Under the pieces are notes generated by a model that saw nothing but the letters and a program-made list of their open reading frames with translations, was not told the origin of the DNA and ran no database searches. From Paracoccus sp. TOH (lineage in GTDB: Bacteria; Pseudomonadota; Alphaproteobacteria; Rhodobacterales; Rhodobacteraceae), in contig NZ_CP098361.1 of the NCBI RefSeq assembly GCF_030388245.1, positions 557,001 through 621,000 on the forward strand: a stretch of DNA of 64,000 nucleotides, written 5' to 3'. Below are positions 54,150-64,000 of the stretch, in pieces. Position 1 is the stretch's first letter, and each line of letters begins with the position of its first letter. A program made the position numbers and the translations under genes.

Positions 54150-54403
54150 GCAGCGGCACCGCAATTCGCATCCCATCGGGCGCTGGCGTGTCATGGAGGG
54201 CGCAGAGGGTGGCGGCAGGCACCACGACCGAAAGATGGCAGGATAAAAGCGCGCACGGTGCGGCTCAGGCGGGCGGTTGTTTTTGTTCATGTTTCTGGCG
54301 CGTTTCGCACCGTGCGGCGCTATCGCGCACCGTGTGCTTCGCGTCCATCTTCCTGATTTTATTCTCTGTTTTGCACCGTGCGGGGATGTGCCATGTCCGA
54401 TGA
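54146..54403 (+). CDS. Small frame between transglycosylase and relaxase
   Basis: An 85-residue frame whose ATG overlaps the transglycosylase stop (ATGA), suggesting coupling. The second half is cysteine-rich and hydrophobic (GCFCSCFWRVSHRAALSRTV). However, that stretch also contains the GCACCGTGC repeats, so it may be regulatory DNA that happens to stay open. It also runs past the relaxase start. Low confidence as a gene. Confidence 0.3.
   Translation: MSSGTAIRIPSGAGVSWRAQRVAAGTTTERWQDKSAHGAAQAGGCFCSCFWRVSHRAALSRTVCFASIFLILFSVLHRAGMCHVR
54253..54381. repeat. Four GCACCGTGC-type repeats upstream of the relaxase gene
   Basis: Near-palindromic nonamers occur at 54253 (GCACGGTGC), 54307 (GCACCGTGC), 54327 (GCACCGTGT) and 54373 (GCACCGTGC). 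The first is the reverse complement of the second and fourth. The last ends 11 bases before the relaxase ATG. Possible roles are binding sites for the relaxase or an accessory protein in oriT, or operators for the transfer operon. Confidence 0.55.
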
Positions 54404-56147
54404 GCACGAGTTCCGCATCCGTCCGGGGCGCATCCGCTCAACTCGTGCGCAGCAAACCCGGCCCTTCATCGCGCAGGCACTTGCCGCCGCGAAGAAGGCC
54501 GGAGGCGGCGTCTCGCGATCCGGTCGCGTCACATCCGGCAATCGTTCCCGCTTCGGGCGCGGCCAGCGCGCCAGCGTACAGGCCAACCGCCTCATCACCT
54601 CCCGTACACGCGGCGCCGTCGTCAAGGCACGCGTCGTTCGCCACATGGCGTCGTCGGCGCCGCTTGGTGCGCATCTTGATTACCTGCGCCGTGACGGCGT
54701 GACCCGAGACGGAGAGAAGGCAAGGCTGTTCGGGCCGGGAACGGAGGATGCCGATGGTCGCGCTTTCGCGGAGCGCTGCGGTGATGACCGGCATCATTTC
54801 CGGTTCATCGTCTCGCCTGACGACGCGCTGGATATGTCCGACCTCCGATCCTTCACCGACGATCTTGTCGGCCAGATGGAAAAGGATCTCGGCACGCGCC
54901 TCGATTGGGTGGCGGTCGATCACTGGAACACGGCGCATCCGCATGTCCATCTGATCGTGCGCGGCACCCGCGACGACGGGCAGGATCTCGTGATTTCCCG
55001 AGACTACATCAAGGAGGGGATGCGGGACCGGGCGCGCGATCTCATCACCCTGGATCTGGGGCCGCGCACCGATCTCGACATCCGCCGCAGCCTTGAGGCC
55101 CAGATCGAGGCGGAACGCTGGACACAACTCGACCGGCAGCTTGCCCGCGACGCTGGCAAATCCGGTATCGTCGATCTCGCCCCGCTCGCTGATCACCCGC
55201 AGGACGAGTTCCACACGCTGAAGGTCGGTCGGCTGCGCACCCTTGAAATCCTCGGGCTGGCCGATCAGATCGGCCAGTCGCAGTGGTTCATCAAGCCCGA
55301 GGCTGAAGCGGTCCTACGCGAGCTTGGCGAGCGTAGTGACATCATCAAGCGCATGCACCGCGCCCTGACCGAACGCGGCATCGAGCGCGGCTCCGCCAGC
55401 TATGTCCTCGCCGGTGAAAGCCTCGACGTTCCGGTTATCGGCCGTCTGGTCGAACGCGGCCTTGATGACGAGTTGAAGGGGACCGCCTATGCCGTGGTCG
55501 ATGGTGCCGACGGCCGCAGCCATCATATCAGGCTCCCGCATCTGGATGCCGCTGGCGACAGCCCGCCCGGCTCGATTGTCGAGCTGCGCGCTTATGAGGA
55601 TGCGCAAGGCGCGCGCCGTGTCGCGCTTGCCGTCCGCTCCGATCTCGATCTCGGCGCGCAGATCGGCGCCTCGGGTGCGACCTGGCTCGATCGGCAGGCC
55701 ATCGCCCGCGAGCCCATCGCCCTATCGGACAGCGGCTTTGGTGCCGAGGTCCGTCAGGCTCTGGATGAGCGCGCGGAGCATCTGATCGGCGAGGGCTATG
55801 CCGAGCGGCAGGGCGGCCGCGTTGTCTTCGCGCGCCGACTGCTCAGCACACTGCGCAGGCGCGAACTCGACAGCCTCGCCGAGAAGCTCGCGGCAGATAC
55901 CGGCATGTCCTTCGAGCGCGCCGCCAGTGGCGAATATGTCGCCGGTTCCTATCGTCAGCGCTTCGCACTCGCCTCCGGCCGCTTCGCCATGATCGAGGGT
56001 CCCGGACCTGACGGGGGTCTCGGCTTCCAGCTCGTGCCCTGGTCGCCCTCGCTGGAAAAGCAGATCGGCCGTCACGTCTCCGGCGTGGCCCGCGACGATG
56101 GCGGCATCGATTGGGATTTTGGGCGCAAGCGCAGCCTCGGCCTCTGA
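54393..56147 (+). CDS. Relaxase (VirD2-like, DUF3363)
   Basis: A 584-residue relaxase that nicks oriT and pilots the transferred strand. After a basic N-terminus, the relaxase domain includes LGAHLDYLRRDGVTRDGEKA and the metal motif HPHVHLIVRG with His182, His184 and His186. The C-terminal half carries DUF3363 (ADGRSHHIRLP, EKQIGRHVSGVARDDGG). The ATG at 54393 is favoured over an in-frame GTG at 54378. The traG coupling gene follows 25 bases on. The transfer origin is expected nearby. Confidence 0.92.
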   Translation: MSDEHEFRIRPGRIRSTRAQQTRPFIAQALAAAKKAGGGVSRSGRVTSGNRSRFGRGQRASVQANRLITSRTRGAVVKARVVRHMASSAPLGAHLDYLRRDGVTRDGEKARLFGPGTEDADGRAFAERCGDDRHHFRFIVSPDDALDMSDLRSFTDDLVGQMEKDLGTRLDWVAVDHWNTAHPHVHLIVRGTRDDGQDLVISRDYIKEGMRDRARDLITLDLGPRTDLDIRRSLEAQIEAERWTQLDRQLARDAGKSGIVDLAPLADHPQDEFHTLKVGRLRTLEILGLADQIGQSQWFIKPEAEAVLRELGERSDIIKRMHRALTERGIERGSASYVLAGESLDVPVIGRLVERGLDDELKGTAYAVVDGADGRSHHIRLPHLDAAGDSPPGSIVELRAYEDAQGARRVALAVRSDLDLGAQIGASGATWLDRQAIAREPIALSDSGFGAEVRQALDERAEHLIGEGYAERQGGRVVFARRLLSTLRRRELDSLAEKLAADTGMSFERAASGEYVAGSYRQRFALASGRFAMIEGPGPDGGLGFQLVPWSPSLEKQIGRHVSGVARDDGGIDWDFGRKRSLGL

Positions 56148-56172
56148 CCTCAACTGGAAAGGATCTCTGCCC

Positions 56173-58158
56173 ATGTCCGCCACCAAAATTCTCTGGGGAC
56201 AGATCACCACCGTCTTCCTCATCATCCTTGCCACCACCTGGGGCGCGACGCAATATGTCGCCTGGAGCCTCGGCTATCAGCCGCAACTCGGCCCGCCCTG
56301 GTTCGAACTGCTCGGGACGCCGATCTATTATCCCCCGGCGATCTTCTGGTGGTGGTATTTCTATGAAGCCTATGCGCCGCCGATCTTCGCGAAGGGCGGC
56401 ATCATCGCGGCCTCGGGCGGCTTCATCGCCATCGCGGTCGCCATCGGCATGTCGGTCTGGCGGGCGCGCGAGGCGAAGAACGTCGCCACCTACGGCTCGG
56501 CGCGTTGGGCCTCAAAGCCCGAGGTGAAGGCCGCCGGCCTGCTCGATCCCGATGGCGTAGTCCTCGGCCGATATGACCGCGAGTATCTGCGGCATGATGG
56601 CCCCGAGCATGTGCTGTGCTTCGCGCCGACCCGTTCGGGCAAGGGCGTCGGCCTGGTGGTGCCGACGCTGCTGACCTGGCCGGGCTCGGCAGTTGTCCAC
56701 GACATCAAGGGCGAGAACTGGCAACTCACTTCGGGGTTTCGTTCACACCATGGTCGCGTGCTGCTGTTCGATCCGACCAACCCGAAATCCTCGGCCTACA
56801 ATCCGCTGCTCGAAGTGCGTCGCGGCGAGTGGGAGGTGAGGGACGTGCAGAACATCGCCGACATCCTCGTCGATCCCGAAGGCAGCCTCGACAAGCGCAA
56901 CCATTGGGAAAAGACCTCCCATTCGCTCCTCGTCGGCGCGATCCTTCATGTTCTTTATGCCGAGCCTGACAAGACGCTGGCAGGTGTGGCCAGATTCCTG
57001 TCCGATCCCAAGCGTCCGGTGGACTCCACCCTGCGCGCCATGATGACAACCGCGCATCTGGGTGAGGCGGGGCCGCATCCGGTCGTGGCCAGTGCGGCGC
57101 GCGAGCTGCGCAACAAGTCCGAGAACGAGCGGTCGGGCGTGTTGTCGACGGCGATGTCGTTTCTCGGCCTCTATCGCGATCCCGTCGTGGCCGAGGTCAC
57201 GCGCCGCTCCGACTGGCGGATCAGCGATATTGTGGCCGGCGATCAGCCGACCACGCTCTACCTCGTCGTGCCGCCTTCCGACATCAACCGCACCAAACCC
57301 CTGATGCGATTGCTGCTCAATCAGGTTGGCCGTCGCCTCACCGAGGATCTGCAAGCGAATGCCGGAAGGCATCGGCTGCTCTTGATGCTCGACGAGTTTC
57401 CAGCGCTCGGGCGGCTGGACTTCTTCGAGACGGCGCTGGCCTTCATGGCGGGCTACGGCCTCAAGAGCTTCCTGATCGCGCAGTCGCTGAACCAGATCGA
57501 GAAAGCCTATGGGCCGAACAACTCGATTCTCGACAACTGCCATGTCCGCGTGAGCTTCGCCACCAACGATGAGCGCACCGCCAAGCGCGTGTCGGACGCC
57601 CTCGGCACCGCCACCGAGATGAAGGCGATGAAGAACTATGCCGGGCACCGGCTGTCGCCCTGGCTGGGGCATCTCATGGTCTCGCGCTCGGAAACCGCGC
57701 GCCAGTTGCTCACGCCGGGCGAGATCATGCAGCTCCCACCACATGAGGAGATCGTCATGGTGGCGGGCATCCCGCCGATCCGGGCGACGAAGGCGCGCTA
57801 CTTTGAGGATGCCCGGTTTCAGGAGCGCGTTCTTTCCCCGCCTGATCTGACGCGCCCGGAAGGAACCCGTGCCGACGACTGGACCGCGTTGCCGATCCCG
57901 GCGCGACCCGGTCCTGCCGAGGATGACGAGGACCACATGAGGGATGATGAAGATCCGACCGAATCCGAACGCCGCTTGCAGCCCGAACTCAGCCGCGTGA
58001 AGCCGGTGGAGAAGAAAAAGCCCATCGAGAACGAGTTCGAGCCCGATCTTTCCGATGACGTGGAAGAAGATGTTGCCCGGAACCGACGCATGATCCGCCA
58101 GGTGCAGGGGATTGCCCGGCAGGTCGCCATGGACCCGAACGACGGCATGGAGCTGTAG
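56173..58158 (+). CDS. traG: TraG/VirD4-type coupling protein
   Basis: A 661-residue type IV coupling ATPase. Two N-terminal membrane segments (about 8-30 and 70-100, the latter with GGIIAASGGFIAIAVAIGM) precede the ATPase with APTRSGKGVGLVVPT (Walker A, Lys near 157) and LLMLDEFPALGRLDF (Walker B, near 407). The tail is acidic and probably flexible. It links the relaxase-DNA complex to the mating channel. The ATG follows AAGGATC; upstream in-frame codons belong to the relaxase 3' region. Confidence 0.94.
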   Translation: MSATKILWGQITTVFLIILATTWGATQYVAWSLGYQPQLGPPWFELLGTPIYYPPAIFWWWYFYEAYAPPIFAKGGIIAASGGFIAIAVAIGMSVWRAREAKNVATYGSARWASKPEVKAAGLLDPDGVVLGRYDREYLRHDGPEHVLCFAPTRSGKGVGLVVPTLLTWPGSAVVHDIKGENWQLTSGFRSHHGRVLLFDPTNPKSSAYNPLLEVRRGEWEVRDVQNIADILVDPEGSLDKRNHWEKTSHSLLVGAILHVLYAEPDKTLAGVARFLSDPKRPVDSTLRAMMTTAHLGEAGPHPVVASAARELRNKSENERSGVLSTAMSFLGLYRDPVVAEVTRRSDWRISDIVAGDQPTTLYLVVPPSDINRTKPLMRLLLNQVGRRLTEDLQANAGRHRLLLMLDEFPALGRLDFFETALAFMAGYGLKSFLIAQSLNQIEKAYGPNNSILDNCHVRVSFATNDERTAKRVSDALGTATEMKAMKNYAGHRLSPWLGHLMVSRSETARQLLTPGEIMQLPPHEEIVMVAGIPPIRATKARYFEDARFQERVLSPPDLTRPEGTRADDWTALPIPARPGPAEDDEDHMRDDEDPTESERRLQPELSRVKPVEKKKPIENEFEPDLSDDVEEDVARNRRMIRQVQGIARQVAMDPNDGMEL

Positions 58159-58606: not shown

Positions 58607-58885
58607 TTGGTATACCATTTCGAGCCCATCAGCGACATTCAGGCAGACTGCGGTATGGCGCAGCCCCTCACGGATGCGGAAGAAGACCCGGCCCAAAGTA
58701 GACATTCCAGCGCTGTCGATCCTGCCTGGCGACATGTCCGAAAGCGGACACCGCACTCTTGCCGAACGGAAATCCACCCAATCAGTAAGACACGGCGGCG
58801 GCCTTCGGCGGATACTTGCGGTTCAAGCTGTGCAAAGCGCTGTTCGCTCGGTATCGTTGGCCAAGGGCGGGAGGGATGTTCAGCA
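58607..58885. other. Junction between conjugation cluster and defence DNA
   Basis: No gene is supported. Base composition and codon pattern change in this 280-base gap. A reverse-strand frame (58580-58777) encodes GRVFFRIREGLRHTAVCLN, which feels familiar as debris beside insertion elements, but I cannot name it. The breakpoint that removed or displaced the trb genes is probably close to 58607-58640. Confidence 0.45.
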
Positions 58886-60454
58886 GTGGAAATAAGTAGA
58901 CTTAAAATATCAAACTTTCGCTCTATCAAAGAGGCAGACATTCAGTTTGGCGCGGTTACAGTCCTTATAGGAACCAACAACGCCGGAAAGTCGGCGATAC
59001 TGGAAGCGATCCGCATCGCGCTTACCAGACGGTGGGGACAGCGCGGAACCGGATTCACTGAATATGATGTGCATCTGTGCGACGGTAGGCCAGATCCAAA
59101 AGTCGGCGATCCCGTCGTTATCGAGGTCGAGTTCCAGGAGGCTGTCGCCAACGAGTGGCCCGAGGACCTCCACGGCGAACTCGAAGACATCATCCAACTC
59201 GATCCAGTGACCGGCCGCGCGTCAATAATCATGCGCGTCAGCTGCTCATGGGAAGCGGCCGAAGAGAGTTTCGTGCCACGATGGGAATTCCTGAACGTCG
59301 AAAGGAACCCACTCGCCGGGCGCGGCGCTCGCGCCGTCAATCTCCAGGAGTTCTTCCAGTTTCTGCCCGTCTTCTACCTTGAGGCGCTCCGCGACGTCAC
59401 GGACGAGTTTTCCTCAAGGAGCCAGTTCTGGGGCAAGTTGCTCCGGACGGTGCAAATCCCTGAACCTCTCGAGCAGAAATCAAAGCGGATCTTCGACCTT
59501 CTGAATCGACGCTTGCTCGACGCTGATCCGCTTCTGGCCAATCTTGCCAACGGTCTTTCCCATATCAGCCGCGTCGCCGCCACCGACGTCCCAGGCCAGG
59601 CGGACTTGCGGCTGCTGCCCCTCAATACATGGGATATCCTCTCGAAGGCGGAGGTCATCTATCAGACGGAGGGCGGCAAACCGTGGCTACCGTTGGCGCG
59701 GCACGGTCAAGGCGTGCAGAGCCTTTCCGTCATGTTCCTCTTCAAAGCCTTCGTTGAGCTGATCCTGAGCGATCTGTACCGGCCCGAAAGCACAGCTGTC
59801 CTGGCTCTTGAGGAGCCGGAGACACATCTCCATCCTCAGGCGGCCCGCAGCCTTTGGCGTCATATCACTGAGCTCCCAGGCCAGAAGATCGTAACGACAC
59901 ATTCGCCGTACTTCCTACAGCACGTTCCGTTCCGCGATATCCGCGTCGTCCGTGTCGAGGCCAACGGCACAACTGTAAGCGCTCTCCCCCGTCAATTCCG
60001 CGCGCCCGTCCCGCATGTTCCCCAGATTGACGCCATCATCGCAGCCTCCGCCGGCCTCATCACTTATGACCGCGGTCTCAACGAACTCGTGCTGTCCGGC
60101 GCTCTGCCCCAAAACCAGTATCGCGATCTCCTCATCGCCTACGGCGGACGCCCTGACACACAGACCATCCACGCCGCGCTGCGTAAGGCATCCGATGCAT
60201 CGCAGGAGTTCGTCTCGGACGCGGAACTGGAGCAGCTGGAGACATTTGCTCGGCGGATCCGTGGCGAAATATTCTTCGCACGCCGCTGGCTTCTCGTGGA
60301 GGGCCCGTCCGATTACCATCTGGTTCATGGCATCGCCAAGGGCCTTGGCTACGACCTTGATGAACACGGCGTCGCCGTCATCGATTTCCAGAACAATGGC
60401 AGCCCCGAGATTATGCGTGAGTCATTGTCTCAGCTTTCCACTCTGGGAAGGTAG
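58886..60454 (+). pseudogene. OLD-family ATP-dependent nuclease, truncated by IS110
   Basis: A 522-residue OLD-type protein starting at GTG 58886 after GGGAGGG. The ABC-ATPase part has RLKISNFRSIKEAD, Walker A GTNNAGKS at 29-36, and the signature/Walker B segment LALEEPETHLHPQ. A Toprim nuclease domain begins (WLLVEGPSDYHLVHGIAK with the first glutamate, then VIDFQNNGSPEI) but the downstream acidic DxD part is missing because the frame runs into the IS110 left end and stops. OLD nucleases act in phage defence (for example Gabija GajA, retron and Lambda-exclusion systems). This copy has probably lost nuclease activity. Confidence 0.8.
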
Positions 60455-60464
60455 AGGCAGACGG

Positions 60465-60557
60465 TTTCTGGGACGGCCATCCCAGGAACTGGTGACGGGC
60501 GGGCCTCCCCGAGGAATGACCCGACGAGCGGTCGCAAAATATCTTGCCACCCGTCAC
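60465..60557 (+). ncRNA. Candidate IS110 bridge RNA
   Basis: Upstream of the transposase gene, TTTCTGGGA (60465-60473) pairs with TCCCAGGAA (60480-60488) as a first hairpin. GGTGACGGG (from 60491) then pairs with CCCGTCAC (60550-60557) around two smaller hairpins (CCTC/GAGG and GACC/GGTC). A 5' hairpin followed by loop-bearing stems in the left noncoding end is the arrangement of IS110 bridge RNAs, which guide target choice. This is inference from structure and position. Confidence 0.5.
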
Positions 60558-60626
60558 ATCTGTCAGGCCATCCGAACGGTAGAGGGGCCTTCGCGGCCGT
60601 GCATAATCAAGGATCACGACAAGCAT

Positions 60627-61595
60627 ATGAGCAGCAACTTCCACGAAGGCCATCGCACGAATATCATTGCGTTTGAGGTTTCTAAAGCGAGCCTAACCGT
60701 CCACAGCCTGCCCGACGACCGGCAGGTCACCATCCCAAACACCGCGCCCGCGATCAGACGCTTGCTCAAAGCAAAGACGAAAGGCAGCAACCCTTTCGTG
60801 ATCTGCGAGGCATCCGGTGGATATGAGCGCCATGTTCTGAATTGCGCAGTCGAGGTGGGGCTTTCAGCCCATCGGGCGCATGGCACGCGGACACGGAATT
60901 TCGCGAAATTCTTGGGCCTCTCTGCCAAGACAGACGCGGTGGATGCGCGAATGCTCGCGCTATTCGCCGCCAAGTCGGTCGATCTGCGGCTATGGCAGCC
61001 ACCCGCCCCAGAGACGGTCGAGCTGCGTGGCTTGCGGCGGCGGCGCGATGATCTGGCACAGATGATCCGCATCGAGCAAAACAGGTTGGAGCATCCGCAA
61101 ATCAAGCATGTGGAACGCTCTCTGAAGCGTCATGTTCGCGCCATGAGCAACGAGATCAAGGAGCTCGATACTCAGATCGCCGCATTGGTCGCCGCAACGC
61201 CGGAGTTTCGGCAGAAGTCGGGCCTGCTGACGTCTGTGATCGGCGTGGGGCTAAAGACGGCAGCGGCCTGTCTGGCTTATCTTCCAGAGCTGGGGTCGCT
61301 GACCAAAGGAGAGGCTGCTTCGATTGTCGGTCTTGCGCCCCATGCTCAGGATTCAGGGACGCTGAAAGGACGCCGCCGCATTTCAGGAGGCAGGCGTGAG
61401 GTCAGGTCGAGCCTCTATATGGCGGCATTGACTGCCCTCCGCCTCGATCCGGCGATGCAAGCTTTCGCGCACCGCCTGAAAGAGCGTGGCAAGCCCGCGA
61501 AAGTGGTCATCACCGCAATCATGCGGAAGCTCGCCGTCATCCTGAACGCGGTGCTCAAGACTGGGGAGCCTGCGCGTCGAACTCATTCGGCATAG
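60627..61595 (+). CDS. IS110-family transposase (DEDD)
   Basis: A 322-residue IS110 transposase: an N-terminal RuvC-like DEDD domain (IIAFEVSKASLTV, ICEASGGYERHV, KTDAVDARMLA) and a C-terminal transposase domain (SVIGVGLKTAAACLAYLPELG, then GLAPHAQDSGTLKGRRRISGGR) with a catalytic serine region. The first position of the DEDD tetrad is usually Asp (DVSK), while here it is Glu (EVSK); this may lower activity. The ATG at 60627 follows a structured noncoding region. The gene is otherwise full length. Confidence 0.9.
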   Translation: MSSNFHEGHRTNIIAFEVSKASLTVHSLPDDRQVTIPNTAPAIRRLLKAKTKGSNPFVICEASGGYERHVLNCAVEVGLSAHRAHGTRTRNFAKFLGLSAKTDAVDARMLALFAAKSVDLRLWQPPAPETVELRGLRRRRDDLAQMIRIEQNRLEHPQIKHVERSLKRHVRAMSNEIKELDTQIAALVAATPEFRQKSGLLTSVIGVGLKTAAACLAYLPELGSLTKGEAASIVGLAPHAQDSGTLKGRRRISGGRREVRSSLYMAALTALRLDPAMQAFAHRLKERGKPAKVVITAIMRKLAVILNAVLKTGEPARRTHSA

Positions 61596-61983
61596 CGATT
61601 GCGGACCTTCGCTCGCCTGCGCACGAACAACCGCTGTGCGGACCGAAGCTGCCGTTCGCAGATGCAGCGAGAGCATGTACTTCGCTGGCGCGGGATTCAC
61701 CAAAAGGGCGGACTGCAGACTTTCGCTGCGTTAGCATCCACCCGAACCTGACTCTGACAAGCGGACATCCATGTGGCGTGGAAATGTTCAGTTGGGAATT
61801 TCGTTCGTAGTTGCTGAAGTCCGTGGCCGTTTGGCGCGCATCGGAAAATTGAAGTCCTATTGAAGTCCTGTTGTAAGGATGCGGTTGCAGATCACCATTG
61901 ACTTGCAACCGGAAACCGAATGCATGAGATTGAAATAGTTGCAACGGCGACGTGCGGCGAAGTTCAGAGCAGGGAAATTGGTA
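61596..61983. other. Gene-poor region between IS110 and kinase-helicase gene
   Basis: About 390 bases contain no convincing gene. A reverse-strand open frame (61555-61944) has no clear similarity and I do not call it. The stretch is AT-richer than the left part and should contain the promoter of the gene starting at 61984 and the right end of the IS. Confidence 0.45.
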
Positions 61984-64000
61984 TTGAGCAGTTCAATAAG
62001 TGATCGCTTTGAGTTTGATGAATCTGCAGTTGCGGTTGGTGACGAGGCTGCCTTGAGAGGTGCCCTATGGAGGGTCTACGATAAATCCAACGGGCATGCT
62101 GAACGTTTACTAAGAACGTGGCGGAAGACCGGAACAGACATCGACGACGAATTGCGGTCGCTGTGGCGATACGAAATGCGGCAGGTTCGTCGGTTGATGC
62201 GCTACAGAGATGCGAGTGAGCTAATTGTCGATGTGTTGGAAGAGTTGGAAGACGACGAAGAGTTCGCACTCGTTTTGGCAGCTCGTGGTGAACCAATCTC
62301 GGCAGGAGCAAGGCGGCGACGTTCTCGCGAGAGCCCAATCGGGAGAAAAAGGATCCTTGTTTGGCGGAACATTACCCGCTTAGTGCGCGCTTTGGGAATT
62401 CTTCATGACCAGGCAATCGTGCATGGAGATTTGTCTCAGGACTGCATTTTTTCAGAAGACGGAGATCAGCCAGATTTCAGGCTCGGCGGATTTGAATGGA
62501 GTGTCCGACTAGATGCGGGCGATCAATCTCGAGCGACAAGATCGATGCATCGTCCGGACAAAACATTCTCGTTTCGAGCTGATTGGGCCCAGCTTGGTAT
62601 AATTGCGGCGGATTTGCTTGGTTTAGAGAAATCGGACTCGGCCTTTTTGAATACGTCATCCAAAGAGTTAAGAGTTTTAAGGCTATTGACGGTGCCCCGG
62701 CCCAATCAACCTTTGGACGCCAAGACCGTGGCACGGGAAATCGAAACAGTGATTTTGGATCTCCGCCGCTTGGAAAGTGGAAGGCAGGGACAGTTGATCC
62801 TGATGCCAAACCCAGCGACCTTGGGCCCTACGCTAATCGAGCATCTTGGTACTGGAATTGATCCAGACAACTTCTCAGATCATTGCAAGTGGCTTCAGGC
62901 TGATTTGCAGTCTGACGTTCGTGTTGCTCCTCGCTTTGAAGACGATCAACGCAAACAATGCGAAATTGTAACAAGTTCCTTTCGATATGTAGTGGAACCA
63001 CTTCGGCATGCCGCGGATTGGCGCGTGGGCTACTTAAAGGCGCTTATTCCCAACGATGGCCGCGGTACAGGTGCGGCCGAACCCAGAGAGCTAGCCTCTC
63101 CAATCGTTGTGGTTCCGAATAGGAAAGAAGCCTCTGATTTATCGAGAAAACTGGGGCCCTCGGCCATAGAATGGGATCAATTTTCGAGGCCTCCAGACGA
63201 AGACCAACTGCCAACAGCAAATGTTCTAGACGCGCTCCTTATTATCGAAGTGATTGAAGCAGTTGCTTCAACGCTTGATGCCTTTCCAGTGGCTGTCGTT
63301 GAGGACGCGTCTGACGATCAATGCGTAGCCCTTCAGTTGCTGGATGATGATGATCACCAAGCATTGGTTGAGCAAGCGGGCTTGCGGCCGGACTCGGAGC
63401 GTCTTGAGGATCTGTTGGATAGCTCCGACGACACCCCCTGGCGTTTGTCGAATTCACCGAAGCTGGGATGGAGTGGCTCTGCAGACATCGACATCGACTT
63501 CATTCAATCTGATTACGCTCCGAATGGCGCGCGGTTACATGTTTTTGAATGCAACGAAGTCCCGGCGGGCAAACTTTTTCTTAAACCTCCACGTGACATT
63601 AGAACCGAAAGTCAAGTTCGAAGACGCTTAAGAAACATTCTTCTGCTTGAAGGGCGAACAGATGTCACAGTCGGATTTGATGACCCGTGGCTCGCTCGAC
63701 GGACTCGGTTTGCGAGCGAGCTAGAAGGTGAGCCTGACAGCGCATTGGATGAACCCAAACGTCGCGCCTTGGATCTAATCTCTCAGACAGAACCTTACGT
63801 GTACGTGGTTGGCCCGCCAGGTGTAGGGAAGACATTTCTGGTATCCCGTGCGATCAAGCAGATTTTAGAAAGCAAACCGGATGCGCGCATACTCGTTACC
63901 GCTCAAGGTCATGAAGCGCTGAAGAACATTCAAGACGAGCTTAGAAAGGTAATCCCCCAGGATGCCACAATCATCAGGATTGGAAATGACGATGACCGCT
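61984..64000 (+). CDS. Degenerate protein kinase-helicase fusion, 3' end outside window
   Basis: The frame stays open from TTG 61984 (alternatives at TTG 61978 and 61939) to the window edge, at least 672 codons. Residues about 20-190 look like a protein-kinase fold: a helix WRYEMRQVRRLM, a catalytic-loop-like HDQAIVHGDLSQDCIF (HGD instead of HRD, at 147-149), and RLGGFEWS where DFG would be. A middle region of unknown fold follows (200-580). Then YVVGPPGVGKTFLVSRA gives a Walker A at 610-617, followed by LVTAQGHEALKNIQDEL, typical of superfamily 1 helicases. This looks like an antiphage-type fusion, but the C-terminus is not visible. Confidence 0.7.
   Translation, partial: MSSSISDRFEFDESAVAVGDEAALRGALWRVYDKSNGHAERLLRTWRKTGTDIDDELRSLWRYEMRQVRRLMRYRDASELIVDVLEELEDDEEFALVLAARGEPISAGARRRRSRESPIGRKRILVWRNITRLVRALGILHDQAIVHGDLSQDCIFSEDGDQPDFRLGGFEWSVRLDAGDQSRATRSMHRPDKTFSFRADWAQLGIIAADLLGLEKSDSAFLNTSSKELRVLRLLTVPRPNQPLDAKTVAREIETVILDLRRLESGRQGQLILMPNPATLGPTLIEHLGTGIDPDNFSDHCKWLQADLQSDVRVAPRFEDDQRKQCEIVTSSFRYVVEPLRHAADWRVGYLKALIPNDGRGTGAAEPRELASPIVVVPNRKEASDLSRKLGPSAIEWDQFSRPPDEDQLPTANVLDALLIIEVIEAVASTLDAFPVAVVEDASDDQCVALQLLDDDDHQALVEQAGLRPDSERLEDLLDSSDDTPWRLSNSPKLGWSGSADIDIDFIQSDYAPNGARLHVFECNEVPAGKLFLKPPRDIRTESQVRRRLRNILLLEGRTDVTVGFDDPWLARRTRFASELEGEPDSALDEPKRRALDLISQTEPYVYVVGPPGVGKTFLVSRAIKQILESKPDARILVTAQGHEALKNIQDELRKVIPQDATIIRIGNDDDR

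Follow-up and report, generated by a model that had tools for sequence, protein, structure and literature searches.

A disrupted, probable anti-phage operon of Mokosh type I with a predicted pseudokinase domain next to conjugation genes in Paracoccus sp. TOH

The window, a stretch of 64,000 nucleotides from the genome of Paracoccus sp. TOH (source coordinates 557001-621000), ends inside an open reading frame on the forward strand. The 5′ part of this frame (61939..64000) matches the PADLOC profile for MkoA of Mokosh type I, a protein with a kinase-like domain and an SF1 helicase. The frame is continuous within the window, as originally predicted, and reading the sequence past position 64000, which had been suggested as a check, placed its end at L002:5365 (window-equivalent 65364; L002 positions are window positions minus 59999), with mkoB directly downstream. 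The product has 1141 amino acids if the TTG at 61939 is used and 1126 amino acids if translation starts at 61984. The latter is the likely start, where the database copy P0001 also begins.

The PADLOC MkoA model PDLC03920 matched residues 19-1123 of the 1141-residue product (model positions 6-1099 of 1112; E = 4e-205) with a score of 682 bits. Two MkoA models of 1112 and 1607 positions exist in PADLOC, of which the shorter one fits the protein of the window best. The MkoA model likewise matches every one of the 42 members of alignment A1, which are P0001 and 41 of the other 119 listed homologues. The gene is almost certainly mkoA. The original prediction had not recognised the fusion and had proposed a new defence effector. 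A new, unclassified effector would be in keeping with the single-sequence Pfam matches, in which the joining of kinase and helicase is not obvious, but the nearly full-length match to a described defence family and the adjacent mkoB gene leave this reading next to no probability.

Both the sequence and the predicted structure give MkoA a kinase-fold domain joined to an Upf1-like SF1 helicase. The predicted pseudokinase domain (residues 1-261 of P0001) is encoded at 61984..62766. It includes the degenerate catalytic loop HGDLSQDC (residues 147-154, 62422..62445), in which the Asn of the HRDxxxxN motif is replaced by Cys. The Upf1/Ighmbp2-like helicase starts at residue 410 (63211..64000 within the window) and carries the P-loop GPPGVGKT at 63811-63834; all these features lie on the forward strand. 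Residues 262-409 are barely covered by structure matches. The kinase-like fold, the helicase and the degenerate loop had all been read correctly in the original prediction. Features of Mokosh type I that are present at this locus are a Ser/Thr-kinase-type domain (as a domain, not as an activity) fused to a COG1112/Upf1-like SF1 helicase, and a separate adjacent gene, mkoB, coding for a PLD nuclease.

The stop codon of mkoA and the next ATG share one base (TAATG), and the MkoB profile matches next to mkoA with E = 2.1e-58. The mkoB gene of this genome is in two pieces, parted by an insertion sequence (IS). The N-terminal piece (model positions 7-105) and the C-terminal piece (228-602) lie on opposite sides of a 1671 bp element (L002:5742-7412), which has the repeat TTCGT on each flank. 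A second, identical copy is located just 3′ of mkoB (L002:8822-10492) and has its own repeat, CTAAC. The two copies are of the DDE_Tnp_1_4 type and flank the C-terminal piece in direct orientation. Since each copy has its own 5 bp repeat, two separate insertions are indicated. A genome search with the element listed 19 matches, eight of them full-length at 100%, two partial at 100% and nine at 85%. No other strong mkoB was found among the listed genome matches, the third of which had E = 1.5e-5.

The C-terminal piece contains a PLDc_2 domain with two HxK(x4)D (HKD) motifs, and the N-terminal piece gave only weak helix-turn-helix matches below the cut-off. The frame of the C-terminal piece extends without a stop codon into the end of the IS (L002:7182-8807, 541 amino acids) and might yield an MkoB that is shortened at its N-terminus. 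The operon in Paracoccus sp. TOH is probably inactive, or at best works with an MkoB that lacks about 125 N-terminal residues. As the insertions may be recent, the broken state carries no information on past function.

Upstream of mkoA, a truncated gajA gene of the Gabija system was identified on the forward strand (58607..60454), which codes for an OLD-family ATPase/TOPRIM nuclease. Its profile match (positions 2-510 of 639; E = 3.8e-240) stops beside an IS110-type transposase, whose domains DEDD_Tnp_IS110 and Transposase_20 were found at 60729..61466 (forward strand) on the frame 60015-61595, between gajA and mkoA. There is no gajB frame between the two genes, and a complete Gabija system, i.e., a full GajA followed by GajB, is absent from the locus. 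The closest match in the genome to one GajB model lies some 60 kb off and is possibly a general UvrD helicase. The defence setting given in the original prediction is supported. Gabija and Mokosh are neighbours here, each of them is damaged and has insertion sequences next to it, and the locus thereby illustrates how a mobile defence island decays.

Conjugation genes, including a relaxase (DUF3363) and a type IV secretion system coupling protein, are located upstream of the defence genes (54378..58158, forward strand). A transglycosylase and an S26 peptidase are also encoded upstream, so that the defence genes adjoin a conjugation module. The cargo downstream (L002:10783-17571) resembles an arsenic-type cluster. 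Pfam matches in it comprise an SBF-family transporter and a fusion of a helix-turn-helix domain with a low-molecular-weight phosphatase, and MFS-like transporters as well as a glyceraldehyde-phosphate-dehydrogenase-like gene were noted by eye only.

The pairing of mkoA and mkoB was analyzed in 79 loci, 70 of which have an MkoA frame of at least 100 bits; the nine uncounted loci comprise seven whose matches are distant and score below 100 bits and two that gave none. This survey of homologues and their neighbours, also proposed at the outset, found an MkoB match immediately 3′ of mkoA and in the same orientation in 64 of the 70 loci, which do not amount to 64 independent cases because the sequences at some loci are identical. 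In 51 of the 64 the two genes overlap by four bases. The exceptions are L005 and L039, which have no match to the C-terminal piece and an MkoB N-terminal match directly 3′, L069 near a contig edge, the fragment L076, L065 with a shortened mkoA and with mkoB 359 bases further on, and L072 with mkoB on the opposite strand. Two HxK(x4)D motifs are present in 54 of 61 distinct MkoB matches, the C-terminal piece of the window's operon included; both HKD motifs of the partner encoded directly downstream of mkoA are of the PLD type. One of the 64 loci, the actinobacterial match of L078, reaches only 33 bits and has no HKD motifs.

This pairing also bears on a different explanation, in which the protein is an RNA/DNA helicase that serves housekeeping or conjugation in the mobile element and has no part in defence. 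The adjoining conjugation genes would suit such a helicase, and Dna2 structures are the top two entries in the Foldseek list, but the regular association with a PLD-type MkoB, the PADLOC matches for both proteins and the gajA remnant next to mkoA make it very improbable.

For the kinase-like domain, the catalytic residues were counted in two sets. The genome-derived set has 61 rows, i.e., the window and 60 distinct MkoA frames above 900 amino acids from the 79 loci. Shorter frames were dropped, and the five rows from actinobacteria as well as L002, a duplicate, were set aside. The database set consists of 120 listed proteins of 630 found. In the genome-derived rows the Asp of HRD is lost in 59 of 60 readable cases, the window being the one that retains it, and the metal-binding Asn of the loop is lost in 58 of 59 and present in one. 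Among the 120 listed homologues of the 630, the Asp is kept in four of 119 readable proteins (P0001, which is the window's copy, P0002, P0003 and P0021) and the Asn in four of 119, and in none of them do the two occur together. The window's domain does not carry the full set of an active Ser/Thr kinase, consisting of the HRD Asp, the metal-binding Asn and the DFG Asp, as its Asn is absent.

The DFG motif can be read in two registers. The structure model, in which residues 166-167 form a short beta strand, suggests GFE. Here G169 is Gly in 56 of 58 readable rows, followed by F, Y, V or I and then by Glu in 58 of 58; the stretch 173-191 just after the strand has a pLDDT below 50. The alternative register, given by MAFFT and hhalign, begins at D164 (Asp in 51 of 58), followed by F or Y in 52 and by R, Q or K in 56; most rows then read D[F/Y][R/Q/K], without the Gly. 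A basic residue (K or R) occupies position 44, the counterpart of the beta-3 lysine, in 55 of 59 readable rows. Position 64, aligned with the C-helix Glu, is E in 27 of 58, and D200, aligned with the conserved alpha-F Asp, is Asp in all 61 rows. By these counts the kinase scaffold is conserved, and the catalytic loop is not. K48 (Lys in 59 of 59 readable rows) was considered as the beta-3 lysine and rejected, as the profile alignment places that residue at position 44.

Judged by these alignments, the kinase domain in the clade of the window has lost catalytic residues. An atypical kinase that is active and has the helicase, MkoB or a phage target as its substrate would find support in the HxD aspartate (HGD) of the window's copy and three other listed homologues, in the basic residue at position 44, in D164 as a possible metal-binding Asp in the sequence register and in the intact HRD and DFG motifs of two other MkoA-like proteins. 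Against this stand the loss of the HRD Asp and of the Asn in nearly all rows, a DFG motif that has become GFE or has lost its Gly, and the finding that Asp and Asn never coincide among the 120 listed homologues of the 630, so that an active kinase appears unlikely. In the four listed homologues that keep the HRD Asp, the window's copy among them, a weak or altered activity may persist. A regulatory role of the pseudokinase is about as likely as not, and the original suggestion of a kinase-like domain that senses or regulates the helicase would be compatible with the predicted loss of catalysis. The consulted passages of the Mokosh and pseudokinase literature contain no description of MkoA as a pseudokinase. 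New with respect to these passages is the pseudokinase predicted across the clade. Mokosh type I itself is a known system, reportedly discovered by Millman in 2022.

The pseudokinase is not common to all MkoA proteins, since the MkoA-like proteins of L104 and L089 (about 1150 amino acids) have an intact HRDIKPSN or HRDIKPQN loop and a TDFG motif and four others (L085, L086, L088 and L107) keep an HGD...N loop. The actinobacterial relatives L073, L074, L075, L077 and L078 have N or M at the position of the HRD Asp; an MkoB match was found only for L073 and L078 of these five, both weak. In a helicase tree of 85 rows, which is only suggestive due to several long branches and an arbitrary root, the clade of the window comprises 62 rows with duplicates included (SH-aLRT 99), the five actinobacterial rows stand beside it (99), the long MkoA proteins matching the 1607-position model are set apart, and L104 and L089 fall far from the clade. 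L104 reaches 725.5 bits on the same PADLOC model, which is above the score of the window's protein, yet lies far off on the tree, so the model may join two lineages. Searches of 398 and 394 genomes with the two MkoA models returned many matches to the kinase or the helicase only, with the controls giving a signal in 13 of 14 genomes each time; the searches were too permissive for a prevalence to be derived.

Taken as a whole, the gene is probably the mkoA of a damaged Mokosh type I anti-phage operon located by conjugation genes, with a kinase domain predicted to be non-catalytic. For MkoA and MkoB a helicase-nuclease mechanism is somewhat favoured. The Upf1-like helicase would engage phage nucleic acid, most likely RNA, the PLD nuclease MkoB would cut it, and the pseudokinase would act as a non-catalytic regulatory or docking module which holds the pair off until infection. 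In PMC11672841, Mokosh is described as a COG1112 RNA helicase with a PLD nuclease and, in type I, an STK domain, and PMC10925250 places MkoA in the SF1 Upf1 group. Two further sources differ, as viral transcripts are degraded by Mokosh according to PMC11291487 and the mechanism is listed as unknown in PMC12926258, and for this reason the helicase-nuclease mechanism is treated here as inferred.

More tentatively, a largely proteobacterial branch of Mokosh might use a conserved pseudokinase, which has HG[x] instead of HRD and GFE instead of DFG, to control the helicase and the PLD nuclease without catalysis. The domain would be a sensor or a docking switch and would perhaps respond to a nucleotide or a phage ligand. 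The catalytic loss would then date from the ancestor of the branch, and the actinobacterial sister group may share it. If the kinase is dead in the whole branch, phosphorylation cannot be the general switch of Mokosh, and the role of the domain in that branch would be structural or ligand-sensing. The branch and the MkoA proteins with intact motifs would in that case form a natural experiment on the control of a helicase-nuclease pair.

The BREX protein PglW is likewise large, belongs to a defence locus and includes a kinase-type domain. No PglW model was listed at E up to 0.1 for the 687-residue part or up to 0.01 for the whole protein, and a PglW identity was rejected. The DLHK pseudokinases of PMC12599244 are proteobacterial pseudokinases fused to DEAD-like/DNA2 helicase domains and in this regard similar. 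However, they retain both the Asp of HRD and the Asn of the loop and have no beta-3 Lys, whereas in the clade of the window these two residues are mostly lost and the aligned beta-3 position is K or R; this catalytic-loop pattern does not fit a DLHK identity. The words phage and defense are absent from the main text of that paper (PMC12599244).

Mokosh type II shares a related helicase (MkoC model, E = 7.3e-26) and a PLD nuclease with the locus, but according to PMC11672841 it has both in one protein, and here they are encoded by two genes. From Mokosh type I the window's clade differs by the lost Asp and Asn, and the operon in this genome by its interrupted mkoB. A further difference is the NERD domain, which PMC10952713 lists for type I and which is absent from the Pfam matches of the window's MkoA at E ≤ 0.1. 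It was not taken as defining for type I, since the description in PMC11672841 does not include it and the shorter of the two MkoA models fits best. In its basic architecture the locus agrees with Mokosh type I: the kinase-fold domain and the SF1 Upf1-like helicase form one protein, and the gene that follows codes separately for a PLD nuclease.
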